A stretch of DNA of 64,000 nucleotides from Aquisediminimonas profunda. GTDB taxonomy: Bacteria > Pseudomonadota > Alphaproteobacteria > Sphingomonadales > Sphingomonadaceae. The stretch lies in the NCBI RefSeq assembly GCF_019443285.1, contig NZ_CP080327.1, positions 1,856,001 to 1,920,000 on the forward strand, given 5' to 3'. Of the stretch, positions 60,441-64,000 are shown piece after piece; the stretch's first letter is position 1, and each line of letters opens with the position of its first letter. Position numbers and translations under genes: made by a program. The notes under the pieces were generated by a model. It saw only the letters and a program-made list of their open reading frames with translations, searched no databases and was not told where the DNA came from.

Positions 60441-61403
60441 ATGAAGCGCGCCTTGAAATGGATATTCCTGCTGTTTGCAACGGGATTGTTGGCGCTGTTG
60501 GCGTTCTGCTGGCAAAGCGACCTGGATCCGGCGGACTTGCAGGCAAAATATGCGAATGGCGCGTCGCAATTCATTGATGTCGGCGGGGGCCTGTTGGTCC
60601 ACGCGCGAGATCAGGGCCGAGGTGAAGCCCCCGTCCTCGTGCTGCTGCACGGTTCAAACGCTTCGCTCCAAACATGGGAGCCTTGGGTCAAGCGACTGCA
60701 AACCAAATATCGCATCATAACTCTTGACCAGATTGGTCATGGCCTGACCGGCCCGAACCCGTCCGACGACTATAGCCCAGCGGCATTTGTATCCACGCTC
60801 GACCGCACGCTTACCAAGTTGGGCGTCACACATTTTGCACTTGCCGGCAATTCGATGGGTGGAGCAGTCGCCTGGAATTATGCGCTTGCCCATCCGGAGA
60901 AAGTTGATGCCCTTATCCTGATCGATGCAGCGGGCGCTCCTGTTGCCGTTCCTGGTCAATTGCCTTTGGGTTTCCGCATAGCGAGGATGCCCGTTATCCG
61001 TCGCCTCGCAGAAGTCGTGACGCCCCGGCGTCTTGTCGAAAAGACCATACGCCAGACGATCTACAACCAGTCAATCATCGATGATCGCATGATTGATCGC
61101 TACTGGGAATTGTTGCTTTATCCCGGAAATCGCCGAGCTACAGCCCTGCGTTTCTCCGCGCAGCGCGTTGCTGCAGACGCGAAGGCGCTTTCCAGGTTGC
61201 ATATGCCGGTGCTCGTCATGTGGGGTCGGGAGGATCGGCTGATCCCGGTTGCCGCCGCTCGGTGGTTTGTGAAGGCACTGCCGCAAGCGCAGCAGATCGT
61301 TTATCCAGGAGTTGGGCATGTGCCGATGGAGGAGGCGCCAGAAAGGTCGGCGGATGACGTTGATGCATTTCTCTCGCGTCTTGCACGCCCGACACAAAAG
61401 TGA
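60441..61403 (+). CDS. Membrane-anchored alpha/beta hydrolase
   Basis: 320 residues. A single N-terminal hydrophobic segment (MKRALKWIFLLFATGLLALLAFCW) is a signal anchor. The hydrolase core has VLVLLHGSNASLQTWEPWV (oxyanion hole), LDQIGHGLTGPN, nucleophile Ser138 in FALAGNSMGGAVAWNYAL, acid in VMWGREDRLIPV and catalytic His in YPGVGHVPMEEAPE. The fold is shared by esterases, lipases and C-C hydrolases; the substrate is unknown. It follows purB by 56 bases. Confidence 0.85.
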   Translation: MKRALKWIFLLFATGLLALLAFCWQSDLDPADLQAKYANGASQFIDVGGGLLVHARDQGRGEAPVLVLLHGSNASLQTWEPWVKRLQTKYRIITLDQIGHGLTGPNPSDDYSPAAFVSTLDRTLTKLGVTHFALAGNSMGGAVAWNYALAHPEKVDALILIDAAGAPVAVPGQLPLGFRIARMPVIRRLAEVVTPRRLVEKTIRQTIYNQSIIDDRMIDRYWELLLYPGNRRATALRFSAQRVAADAKALSRLHMPVLVMWGREDRLIPVAAARWFVKALPQAQQIVYPGVGHVPMEEAPERSADDVDAFLSRLARPTQK

Positions 61404-61457
61404 AACGCTGCTGCTCCAATGGTTGAAAAAGGCAAATTGGGCGTGGCGAAATCGCGA

Positions 61458-62192
61458 ATGGCAGTCATTGCAGTGTATTCGCTAAAGGGAGGGGTGGGTA
61501 AAACGACACTCGCGGTCAACCTTGCCTGGTCGTCTGCGATCCAGTCTTCGCGGCGTACCCTTTTATGGGATCTCGACCCGCAGGCGAGCGCATCATTCCT
61601 GCTGGGGCATGAAGGTCGCGGCAAAGGATCGGCGCAAGCCGTTTTCGCAAAGGATGTTGCCCCGGATCAATTGGTGGTGACGACTGCCATTGAGCGACTT
61701 GACTTGCTTGCTGCTGACACATCGCTGCGCAGCCTTGACCGGCTGCTCTTCTCTATTGGCAAAAGGAAAAGGCTGTCCAAACTCCTTGCCGGACTTGAGA
61801 AATCCTATGACCGCATCATCCTCGATTGTCCTCCTGGACTTACGGAAACCAGCGAGCAGGTGATGTACGCGGCAGACGTGATTATCGTGCCACTGATCCC
61901 TTCGCCACTTTCGCGTCGTGCGTTGGACGAAATCGTGCAACACCTTGATCGCGAGCATAATGGGCACGGTCCCATCCTGCCGGTCTTCTCGATGGTCGAT
62001 CGCCGCCGGACCCTGCATCGTGCAGCTCTGGAGGCTCAGCCTGACTGGCCTGTCATCCCCATGGCGAGTGCCGTCGAACAAATGGCCGTCAATCGCGCGC
62101 CGGTAGGGGTTTTTGCCGGAGATTCACCTTCTGGGAAGGCCTTTTCCACCCTTTGGCGGGGTATCGAAGCACGGTTGGCTCGATTGAGGTAG
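61458..62192 (+). CDS. Orphan ParA-family ATPase
   Basis: 244 residues of the ParA/MinD P-loop family: deviant Walker A in VIAVYSLKGGVGKTTLAVNLAW, Walker A' WDLDPQASASFLLG and Walker B ILDCPPGLTETSEQV. The C-terminal part carries MVDRRRTLHRAALEAQ. No ParB gene or parS-like repeat is nearby, so it is more likely to position a cargo other than the chromosome, or to be a generic ATPase. Start 61458 is chosen because it begins at MAVIAVYS, as relatives do; ATG 61419 is also in frame. Confidence 0.85.
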   Translation: MAVIAVYSLKGGVGKTTLAVNLAWSSAIQSSRRTLLWDLDPQASASFLLGHEGRGKGSAQAVFAKDVAPDQLVVTTAIERLDLLAADTSLRSLDRLLFSIGKRKRLSKLLAGLEKSYDRIILDCPPGLTETSEQVMYAADVIIVPLIPSPLSRRALDEIVQHLDREHNGHGPILPVFSMVDRRRTLHRAALEAQPDWPVIPMASAVEQMAVNRAPVGVFAGDSPSGKAFSTLWRGIEARLARLR

Positions 62193-62219
62193 GGGCCGCG
62201 GCGGAATTTGCCGCGACCC
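62193..62219 (-). terminator. Hairpin between convergent ParA and metallothionein-like genes
   Basis: On the minus strand GGGTCGCGGC pairs with GCCGCGGCCC (ten pairs, one G-U) around the 7-base loop AAATTCC. It starts 7 bases past the stop of the Cys-rich gene and directly follows the ParA stop. There is no T-run, so it may act as a factor-dependent terminator or as 3'-end protection. Pairing is better in the minus-strand RNA. Confidence 0.5.
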
Positions 62220-62226
62220 GCTCGAT

Positions 62227-62349
62227 TCAGCACTTGCAGGGGTTGCAGGTACAGGGGTTGCACGAACAAGCACTGCAGGTGCACGGATTGCAGCGGCAAG
62301 TGCCTTTGTTTGGCGATGCAGCTGGATTGGTTTCGATGGTCTTCTTCAT
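62227..62349 (-). CDS. 40-residue Cys-rich metallothionein-like protein with five CxC repeats
   Basis: An open frame of 41 codons with a textbook ribosome-binding site (AAGGAG, 6 bases before the ATG). Residues 1-17 are MKKTIETNPAASPNKGT. Residues 18-40 are a repeat of period five, C-x-C-x-x, five times over: cysteines at 18, 20, 23, 25, 28, 30, 33, 35, 38 and 40, with NP or SA between units. Ten thiols in 23 residues, with no aromatic residue and no histidine, point to binding of soft metals such as Cu(I), Ag(I), Cd, Zn or Hg. I do not recognise the protein as a named bacterial metallothionein family (BmtA/SmtA or MymT). Its promoter carries a MerR-type operator, and the MerR-family gene is divergent at 62421. 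Confidence 0.85.
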   Translation of the reverse strand: MKKTIETNPAASPNKGTCRCNPCTCSACSCNPCTCNPCKC

Positions 62350-62384
62350 GGGGATCTCCTTGTTTTGCCAAATGGCGAATCAGT

Positions 62385-62415
62385 CTATAACCTCCGTACT
62401 GTGGTACGGAGTCAA
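62385..62415 (-). promoter_or_regulatory. MerR-type promoter/operator of the Cys-rich gene
   Basis: On the minus strand a TTGACT -35 (62410-62415) and a TTATAG -10 (62385-62390) are 19 bases apart, the over-long spacing typical of MerR-activated promoters. The spacer is filled by the perfect inverted repeat CTCCGTAC-N4-GTACGGAG (62392-62411). TTGACTCCGTAC followed by GTACGGA closely resembles the mer operator of Tn21/Tn501 as I recall it. On the plus strand TTTTGC-N17-TATAAC, overlapping the same -10, could drive the regulator gene. The start codon of the Cys-rich gene is 36 bases beyond the -10. Confidence 0.88.
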
Positions 62416-62420
62416 GCGGT

Positions 62421-62810
62421 ATGGGTGGAATGACAATTGGTCGGCTCGCAGAGGCGGCTAATGTGGGTGTCGAGACTGTGCGCTTCTATCAGAGGCGCGG
62501 ACTTCTGCCGGTTCCACGCAGCGCAGGTGCAGTGCGACGATACGATGAGGAGGATCTGCGGCGTCTGCGCTTTATCAGGAGAGCTGCGACGGCGGGCTTC
62601 ACCTTGGCCGACATTGCGGAGCTGATTCGCCTCGATACGACGGAAGATCGTCCTCGTGCGGCTGCGATGGCAGCAGACCGGCTGGCGGCACTGGACATAA
62701 AGATTGCAGAACTTGAGGCGTCCCGCGCCGCTCTCGCCCGATTGAGTGCCGCCTGCGGCAAAGGGGAGGAGGGTCCATGTCCGATTCTTGAAGCTTTCGA
62801 TCCTGATTGA
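62421..62810 (+). CDS. MerR-family metal-responsive regulator
   Basis: 129 residues. The winged helix-turn-helix reads MTIGRLAEAANVGVETVRFYQRRGLLPVP...RRYDEEDLRRLRFIRRAATAGFTLADIAELIRL, very like MerR. A dimerisation helix follows, then the metal loop Cys112-GKGEEGP-Cys120-Pro. That C-x7-C-P spacing equals CueR's, whereas MerR has C-x8-C. The first metal cysteine of MerR (Cys82) is replaced here by an Arg-containing stretch (EDRPRA). So a monovalent ion such as Cu(I) or Ag(I) is the better guess, although the operator is mer-like. ATG 62421 has GGAG nine bases ahead; ATG 62430 is an alternative. It is divergent from the Cys-rich gene. Confidence 0.9.
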   Translation: MGGMTIGRLAEAANVGVETVRFYQRRGLLPVPRSAGAVRRYDEEDLRRLRFIRRAATAGFTLADIAELIRLDTTEDRPRAAAMAADRLAALDIKIAELEASRAALARLSAACGKGEEGPCPILEAFDPD

Positions 62811-62864
62811 ATCCCGCCTGCTACCTTATCATTGCGCAATGCCGGACTAACGCTGGCTTAACGG

Positions 62865-63290
62865 CTAGCGTCGGCGCATTCTGCCAGACAAGGTCACGAA
62901 GAAGGCCGTTGACCAGCCAATCAGGACGATCCCGTTAATCCCTTCAATGGCGGCGACCAGGCGCCAACGATCAGCCATGGCCAGATCATCATAGCCAATC
63001 GCACCATAGGTTATGGTCGAGAAGTAGACTGCATTGCGCAGTCCTTCCACAGCCCCGATAAAGTCATAGACAAAGGCGTAGAGCCAGATTTCAACACCGT
63101 GCAGGCCAATGAGGGCAAGGATCACAGAGAGGGTCACACCAAAACCCCGCAAGGACATCGGATGAATATGCTCGATTGCTTCTTCAAGTTCTTCAAGCCG
63201 AAGCAGCCGCGCGACCGTGAATAGGCCGACGGCGTGAATTATCACGGTCAGAATGACCATGACCGTCGCCAGCGAGAGTTCTGCAAGCAT
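62865..63290 (-). CDS. Two-helix potassium-channel-like membrane protein with altered filter
   Basis: 141 residues. Predicted membrane helices are at about 7-28 and 51-75; then comes a pore-like segment VYFSTITYGAIGYDDLAMADRWRLVAAIEGINGIVLIGWSTAFFVTL, including a final helix. The order resembles the Ion_trans_2 (two-membrane-span K+ channel) pattern TxTTxGYGD followed by a gating helix with a glycine hinge. The filter reads GAIGYDDL, so GYGD has become GYDD. Ion selectivity is therefore uncertain. The 3' end overlaps a small hairpin (62850-62871) shared with the convergent MerR gene. Confidence 0.78.
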   Translation of the reverse strand: MLAELSLATVMVILTVIIHAVGLFTVARLLRLEELEEAIEHIHPMSLRGFGVTLSVILALIGLHGVEIWLYAFVYDFIGAVEGLRNAVYFSTITYGAIGYDDLAMADRWRLVAAIEGINGIVLIGWSTAFFVTLSGRMRRR

Positions 63291-63332
63291 TGCGACTCGA
63301 TAGGATCGGATTGCTCGGGACTCAAGCCACTG

Positions 63333-63776
63333 TTAGCGCAGGATGCCTTTCGCCCGCATTTGTCGCGCATAGATGAAGAGGCCGATTGCTGCAGCCCAAA
63401 GAACTGCGTTGAAGGCCCGACCACCAGCTGTGTTCAAACCCTCTGGAACATCGGCCAGAACGAATTGGTGGAACGACGAAACAGCCAATCCAGCCAAGGA
63501 AATCGCAAATGCGGGATACGCCAAGCCTTTCCTCGAGATCAGCAGGATTGAACCCGCGATTGCGCCCCAAACTCCCAATGCCCAGAAAAGGTTCGCCCAG
63601 AATGGAAAACTGTCGAGCCAGGAAATTTGCTCTGCCGTGAAATCCTTGAGCCACGCCGCATTGTGGGTTTTGGTCATGGTGTAATCAAGCCCGCCCATGC
63701 TGTTCCACAGGAGGCTACCAATACCGACCGCCCAAAGGTGCCATGGCGCTTTTTTTGCCTCGCCAATTCCTGGCAT
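63333..63776 (-). CDS. Four-helix membrane protein of unknown function
   Basis: 147 residues with four predicted membrane helices (about 12-28, 59-79, 85-107 and 118-137). The first part, WHLWAVGIGSLLWNSMGGLDYTMTKTHNAAWLKDFTAEQISWLDSFPFWANLFWALGVWGAIAGSILLI, is Trp-rich and resembles small proteins often labelled putative sugar transporter, without experimental basis known to me. It lies between the channel-like gene and a truncated NTF2-like gene, all on the minus strand. Confidence 0.72.
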   Translation of the reverse strand: MPGIGEAKKAPWHLWAVGIGSLLWNSMGGLDYTMTKTHNAAWLKDFTAEQISWLDSFPFWANLFWALGVWGAIAGSILLISRKGLAYPAFAISLAGLAVSSFHQFVLADVPEGLNTAGGRAFNAVLWAAAIGLFIYARQMRAKGILR

Positions 63777-63830
63777 AATCTCCCACCTCGTCTGGCGGCA
63801 TATCTTCCAATTACCGCACGGAGATTTGCG

Positions 63831-64000
63831 CTATTGCTCCGTCGCTTTCGCGGTGTTCGAGACCACATTCCAGGCAATCTTCCAGCTGCCATCGGCTTGT
63901 GTCTTGTACCCGATCAGCCAATTGCCGCGTTCGATGACGGGTTTTTTCGTTTCGCTGTCGGTCATTGTATAGGCGTATTCGGCCCGATAGACGGCCATCT
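63831..64000 (-). CDS. NTF2/DUF4440-like protein, C-terminal part (cut by window edge)
   Basis: About 56 codons up to the stop at 63831 are visible; the gene begins beyond base 64000. The C-terminal segment contains VYRAEYAYTMTDSETKKPVIERGNWLIGYK and ADGSWKIAWNVVSNT. This is the closing beta-sheet of SnoaL/DUF4440-type proteins, where the pattern G-x-W-K-I is common. An in-frame ATG at 63998 is probably internal. Function unknown. Confidence 0.65.
   Translation of the reverse strand, partial: MAVYRAEYAYTMTDSETKKPVIERGNWLIGYKTQADGSWKIAWNVVSNTAKATEQ

Follow-up and report, generated by a model that had tools for sequence, protein, structure and literature searches.

A putative metal-inducible mini-metallothionein unit beside a MerR-type regulator in Aquisediminimonas profunda

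A 40-residue cysteine-rich peptide and a divergently transcribed MerR-family regulator in A. profunda probably form an inducible mini-metallothionein unit, serving Cu(I) or another soft monovalent metal. We established the anatomy of the unit, the conservation of its operator, of the two-cysteine loop of the regulator and of the peptide core, and the copper company kept by related regulators. By the window we mean the whole stretch of 64,000 nucleotides that was analysed, and the elements lie in it as follows.

62421 to 62810, forward strand: MerR-family regulator of 129 residues, with cysteines only at 112 and 120
62410 to 62415, reverse strand: -35 element TTGACT, separated by a 19-nt spacer from TTATAG
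62392 to 62411, no strand assigned: perfect operator CTCCGTAC-N4-GTACGGAG, inside the 19-nt spacer
62385 to 62390, reverse strand: -10 element TTATAG, from a reading of the sequence
62367 to 62376, reverse strand: inverted repeat GCCATTTGGC in the 5' leader, immediately upstream of the Shine-Dalgarno
62356 to 62361, reverse strand: Shine-Dalgarno AAGGAG, 6 nt before the ATG
62227 to 62349, reverse strand: coding sequence of the putative mini-metallothionein (MT), MKKTIETNPAASPNKGTCRCNPCTCSACSCNPCTCNPCKC, 40 residues, from the list of open reading frames and the relatives
62193 to 62219, reverse strand: 10-bp G+C-rich hairpin past the stop codon, between the convergent MT and ParA-like genes

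These elements bear out a preliminary description of this DNA, which had claimed a 40-residue protein with ten cysteines in five CxC units, AAGGAG ahead of its start, a TTGACT/TTATAG promoter with 19-base spacing, a perfect operator and a MerR-family gene transcribed the other way. The translated reading frame has its cysteines at positions 18, 20, 23, 25, 28, 30, 33, 35, 38 and 40, in a CxCxx period, and with ten cysteines per 40 residues it is a metallothionein in the broad sense of a small, cysteine-rich protein with CxC or CxxC repeats. Reading the -10 element as TATAGA would lengthen the spacer to 20 nt. A generic sigma-70 scan of 62150-62480, which accepts only spacers of 16-18, returned no promoter. 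With up to three mismatches allowed, the window has no other match to the operator (chance mean 0.15, with one or more matches in 12 of 100 shuffles). The regulator starts at 62421 or possibly at 62430, and a GGAG in the right arm of the operator, 9 nt before the ATG at 62421, could be the Shine-Dalgarno of merR. Membership in the MerR family is given by the Pfam domains, the regulator passing the cut-offs of three MerR models (PF13411 at 69.6 bits and PF09278 at 48.8 bits among them), and by the position of the operator in an overlong 19-nt spacer.

The hairpin that had been described after the gene (62219-62193) holds up as a stable structure, at -25.2 kcal/mol (z -3.75, 1 of 200 shuffles equally good), but it has no T-run and was not among the results of a terminator scan. 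In the leader, the stem GCCATTTGGC of the window is weak by itself, a fraction of 0.103 of the shuffles being equally good. Across ten leaders the sequences vary and the pairing recurs (summed z = -3.5), with the stem mostly not significant when single leaders are taken one by one. An Rfam search of 61000-64000 gave none.

The cysteine ladder is far from what composition would give. CxC(xxCxC) motifs in the six frames of the window number three with 3 units, two with 4 and one with 5, overlaps included, whereas 100 dinucleotide-shuffled versions gave a mean of 0.0 for each of these classes. The 15-nt repeat units of the gene are pairwise identical at 8-12 of 15 positions, as tandem duplication would leave. 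Another cysteine-rich frame, at 62208-62390 on the forward strand, lies antisense to the gene because the MT codons are TGCA-rich. Consistent with the preliminary description, in which the repeat was not recognised as any named metallothionein family, the peptide matched no family at cut-off in Pfam and NCBIfam, and a PDB search gave one meaningless match only (E 0.41).

An initial protein search of 298 same-family genomes found three convincing relatives, each with a divergent MerR alongside, and three further matches (L004, L007, L008) with neither MT nor MerR features. With a four-row profile, 43 of 397 same-family genomes gave a match at E up to 0.05; the best 31 located matches were inspected and accepted as genuine where the core and a neighbouring MerR were both present. 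As a lower bound, at least ten of the 397 genomes hold the cysteine core with a MerR of the window type nearby: the window genome (G000), G197, G215, G238, G012, G200, G241, G081 and G274 at E 3.3e-6 or better, and G752 at E 0.0176. The shared core is C-x-C-[NKR]-P-C-T-C-[KRS]-x-C-x-C, with six cysteines in three CxC units. It forms the C-terminus of the protein in nine of the ten, whereas the window protein continues with two more units to reach ten cysteines and five CxC; G081 and G752 carry an additional CxC pair ahead of the core. Given ten cysteines versus six and a longer cluster-forming tail, the window version probably has a higher capacity per chain.

The preliminary description had named loss of the CxC frame in close relatives as the observation that would count against it; all ten genes compared keep the core in frame. 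In every one of them a GGAG or GGGAG lies ahead of the start, and since the N-termini vary among the ten but the core and the strong Shine-Dalgarno are kept, the genes bear the mark of selection at the protein level. Differences within the core, summed over all pairs, number 83, 101 and 153 at codon positions 1, 2 and 3. Another open reading frame separates merR from the MT gene in G012 and G238, and there each of the two genes has an operator copy to itself. The separate operators and the recurrence of the pair in these genomes support the earlier claim of a putative small metal-binding protein under the control of a neighbouring MerR.

Other approaches were less productive. When 385 genomes from across the class were searched with a profile, the window alone scored convincingly, and the six other matches (L010-L015) lacked the MerR pair. 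Searching the plasmids by tblastn with a 29-residue relative gave no match, a weak test with so short a query. Broad pattern scans returned at least 117 and at least 120 stretches, mostly cysteine-rich frames in G+C-rich or repetitive DNA. Among the loci listed from the first of these, 0 of 117 had the operator within 600 bases and no MerR-paired member was seen, and the family was therefore collected by profile. Three relatives of the window peptide had no match at cut-off in Pfam or NCBIfam, one of them reaching E 0.34 with PF02066 (11.5 bits, cut-off 27), and no Pfam, NCBIfam or PHROGs model fitted the peptides tested. Metallothioneins and MerR switches are themselves already known kinds. 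In a limited literature search we found no paper on this peptide or its MerR group.

Tiny reading frames with a CxCxPCTCxxCxC core were also seen in nine IMG/VR viral contigs (L152, L230, L214, L166, L235, L190, L199, L168, L257). By eye, the frame directly follows an IscU-like one in L152, L230 and L214, and a terminase-like frame is nearby in L152 and L230; five of the viral-contig peptides were run against PHROGs and NCBIfam and had no match. Two further side observations, again judged by eye, are a look-alike cysteine-rich frame of about 51 residues (CDCSPCTCAPCKC...) in Caulobacter sp. 17J65-9 (L055:1600-1800, forward strand), divergent from a P-type-ATPase-like frame, and CSCDPCTCENCTC at the N-terminus of a BlaI/CopY-type-looking repressor in an Acidimicrobiaceae MAG (L100:5913-6359, forward strand).

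To look at the regulator more widely we gathered homologues at E up to 1e-26, which gave 92 places in 83 of the 298 same-family genomes, and included G752 as the 93rd locus because it carries an MT. All 93 loci have the operator, matching it in 11 or more of the 14 letters of its half-sites (39 are perfect); of 1860 shuffled upstream stretches, only 11 reached this level. At 79 of the 93 loci the divergent partner is a glutaredoxin-MauE fusion, with PF00462 and PF07291 in the two such proteins tested by Pfam, and at ten it is an MT, G012 having both and being counted in both classes; without G752 the counts are 79/92 and 9/92. Five loci have neither. At L371 the partner is a P-type ATPase with YHS and heavy-metal-binding domains, at L322, L330 and L388 it is a His/Met-rich protein without a Pfam family, and at L392 nothing was recognised as divergent partner. 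That a glutaredoxin-MauE fusion, an MT, a P-type ATPase and a His/Met-rich protein are swapped under one switch suggests alternative handling of the same ion. Since glutaredoxin-MauE is the usual gene under this switch, this membrane fusion may likewise protect against copper. The same domain make-up is found in SmGrx3 of S. meliloti, according to the part of PMC6315971 available to us. Loci of this type share the kind of regulator, the operator and the divergent position with the MT loci, whereas the fusion is a protein unrelated to the MT peptide and would be the alternative effector of the unit. As a side observation, the His/Met-rich, Pfam-less proteins under or near the operator at L322, L330, L388 and L302 are candidates for new copper outer-membrane or periplasmic proteins.

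A homologue of the regulator is present in 33 plasmid records, and its company was examined in 15 opened stretches from these. In 12 of the 15 a gene divergent from it is annotated as glutaredoxin or MauE, and copper-named genes are present in eight (H1, H2, H6, H7, H9, H11, H14, H21). The remaining seven showed no copper-named gene (H4, H29, H5, H12, H13, H15, H19), H4 and H29 being nearly or wholly unannotated and H12 showing few genes. Two stretches additionally have Co/Ni (dmeF) genes, and a scan for a three-CxC ladder was negative in all 15. When eight MT loci were read by eye at about +/-5 kb, copper-type genes appeared at G241 only, where the MT is followed by a His/Met-rich and a TonB-receptor-like frame. 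No recognisable copper gene was found among the window neighbours scanned with Pfam and NCBIfam.

A quick tree of the regulators is poorly resolved, with 46 of its 89 forks unresolved. The window regulator clusters with those of G012 and G752, both MT-type (SH-aLRT 93). The MT label needs at least six changes on the tree, fewer than in any of 500 shuffles, and this suggests that the MT either spread or changed places repeatedly, though it may have had a single origin. When three reference sequences were added, their split from the 93 rows had weak support (65), and we therefore do not claim a clade from the tree.

For the sensor itself, the regulators were aligned with E. coli CueR, the CueR of the window genome and the mercury MerR of pSB102. 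Cys112 and Cys120 are invariant in all 93, 84 have exactly these two cysteines, and the loop C112-x7-C120 has the length found in both CueR proteins. Arg77, likewise present in 93 of 93, stands opposite Cys82 of MerR and Ser77 of CueR; in a pairwise BLAST with CueR it is R79, two residues away, that falls opposite Ser77. The loop departs from that of E. coli CueR at positions 113 (A in 54 of 93, G in 19) and 118 (G in 85). All NCBIfam scores stayed under their cut-offs, the best being mercury MerR (TIGR02051, 96.4 against 150.85 bits), followed by ZntR (87.9 against 167.95), CueR (TIGR02044, 77.2 against 147.4) and CadR-PbrR (64.3 against 151.45). The regulator thus resembles CueR in its MerR fold, overlong promoter spacer and two-cysteine loop, but differs in its score, in having Arg for Ser77, in its mercury-type operator and in its metallothionein target. 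Judged by sequence, the sensor loop and the DNA site together do not match any single known MerR type. CueR binds Cu(I) through two conserved cysteines (PMC7558416, in the part available), and the loop together with the neighbours of related regulators points to a Cu(I)-type metal over Hg, Zn or Cd.

Under this reading, a MerR dimer would sit on the operator in the overlong 19-nt promoter spacer, and Cys112 and Cys120 would bind a soft monovalent ion, with Cu(I) the likeliest and Ag(I) and Au(I) as possibilities. The ion-bound regulator would twist the promoter into a productive shape and so switch on the 40-residue peptide, which would wrap several such ions in a cytosolic thiolate cluster. 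The identity of the metal, the induction and the binding of metal by the peptide are what we infer from sequence.

The window genome (3.4 Mb in one contig) also has a true CueR (157.8 bits, cut-off 147.4). Its gene follows one of the three P-type ATPases of the genome, the one with YHS and heavy-metal-binding motifs, which makes the MT unit look like a further response running in parallel. The full glutaredoxin-MauE fusion is absent from this genome, in which one 32% match covers the glutaredoxin part. The operator occurs in one place at up to three mismatches with spacer letters counted, both mismatches of the window site being in the spacer, at a threshold near chance, as the reversed pattern also occurs in one place per strand. 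Within the genus, no MT was found among the genomes in the profile listing (nine without a match), and the weak match in G681 (L291) proved on inspection to have none. A close MerR homologue is present in G185 only, among 13, where it lies beside P-type-ATPase-like and multicopper-oxidase-like frames (by eye). Beyond the hairpin lies a convergent ParA-like gene (61419-62192, forward strand), and at eight same-genus loci with ParA homologues none of the other window neighbours was found within about 1.5 kb, which makes the arrangement specific to the window genome.

A second Cu(I) sensor in a genome already possessing CueR would be partly redundant, and another metal is therefore possible. The same unit could have Au(I) or Ag(I) as its natural inducer, which would make the regulator a second monovalent sensor of the GolS type next to the housekeeping CueR. 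The metal selectivity of GolS is set by its loop residues 113-118, as stated in the accessible part of PMC6337107, and the departures from E. coli CueR noted above fall at positions 113 and 118. However, copper is the metal in the gene names near related regulators, and annotations naming gold or silver were absent from the 15 plasmid stretches; we consider this alternative unlikely.

A mercury unit, with a MerR sensing Hg(II) and a peptide trapping it, is a considerably more doubtful proposition, although the DNA site itself is of the mercury kind. A mer stretch used as query matched 2202 plasmid records and was located between merR and merT of pSB102; the promoter TTGACTCCGTAC-N4-GTACGGA is common to pSB102 and the window unit, with identical half-sites in the operator TCCGTAC-N4-GTACGGA. 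The regulator is 41% identical to mercury MerR, which is also its best NCBIfam model and, as structure 5crl, its best PDB match. The NCBIfam score is nevertheless well below cut-off. Cys82 is a mercury ligand in MerR, and its place is taken by Arg, in ungapped alignments of the window regulator with MerR and in all 93 regulators; the loop is one residue shorter than that of MerR. No mer genes lie in the scanned window neighbourhood, and no mercury-named gene was found in any of the 15 plasmid stretches, of which H4, H29 and H12 show few genes. On the missing Cys82 and mer genes we rejected the mercury reading in spite of its operator.

Equally doubtful is a thiol or redox unit, in which the regulator would answer oxidants or electrophiles and the peptide would be a thiol reservoir. 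The prevalence of the glutaredoxin-MauE partner fits such a role, as do stretches from Shinella, Gemmobacter and Ensifer in which the pair has no copper-named neighbour; it is less easily reconciled with the CueR-type loop of two cysteines, the copper company and the direct pairing of the same regulator with a heavy-metal P-type ATPase and His/Met-rich proteins.

A divalent-metal (Zn/Cd) metallothionein of the SmtA/BmtA kind is very improbable. Ten cysteines in 40 residues would be expected on general chemical grounds to bind Zn or Cd in vitro, but His is absent from the peptide, and the regulator lacks the third cysteine of divalent-metal MerR sensors. SmtA and BmtA have a zinc-finger fold (PMC7558416, available part); like them, the window peptide is a small, cysteine-rich bacterial protein of a putative metal-binding class, but unlike them it has no Pfam match, and its 23-residue CxC ladder is without a counterpart in the zinc-finger fold. 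Finally, that the cysteine frame is accidental and MerR the sole gene is barely credible, for although the frame has no annotation as far as visible and the opposite strand is cysteine-rich too, not one 3-unit motif arose in 100 shuffles, and the core, Shine-Dalgarno and operator are conserved in nine other genomes. Two other candidates were rejected: a RiPP precursor of the methanobactin or bufferin kind, no modifying enzyme being present among the four flanking proteins scanned, and a leader peptide, since the next gene downstream is the convergent ParA-like one and there is nothing on that strand to attenuate.

The mini-metallothionein reading has a parallel in MymT, a tiny cysteine-rich mycobacterial Cu(I) metallothionein under the copper regulator RicR (PMC6337107, PMC10141476). 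CxC is described as the copper motif of metallothioneins, and MymT binds 4-6 Cu (PMC7558416, PMC6337107, in the parts available). The window peptide is likewise tiny, cysteine-rich and CxC-bearing, but has a MerR in place of RicR, a member of the CsoR family, and had no match in NCBIfam. The bacterial metallothioneins in the available parts of PMC7558416, PMC6337107 and PMC10141476 are under other regulator families (RicR/CsoR, SmtB).

We tentatively propose, with somewhat less confidence than would make it our expectation, an unnamed class of copper mini-metallothioneins (25-40 residues, three to five CxC) acting as a swap-in effector, under an undescribed MerR group that may combine a mercury-type operator with a Cu(I)-type sensor having two cysteines and Arg77, and with glutaredoxin-MauE as the alternative for copper protection. 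To our knowledge, characterised bacterial metallothioneins are few. If the proposal is true, there would be a MerR-driven metallothionein family small enough to evade gene callers and profile libraries, and a sensor could retain mercury-type DNA recognition while reading another metal. It would also suggest a copper role for glutaredoxin-MauE fusions, new to the literature searched, and the unit, being compact, may be of use in biosensors and for capturing metals.
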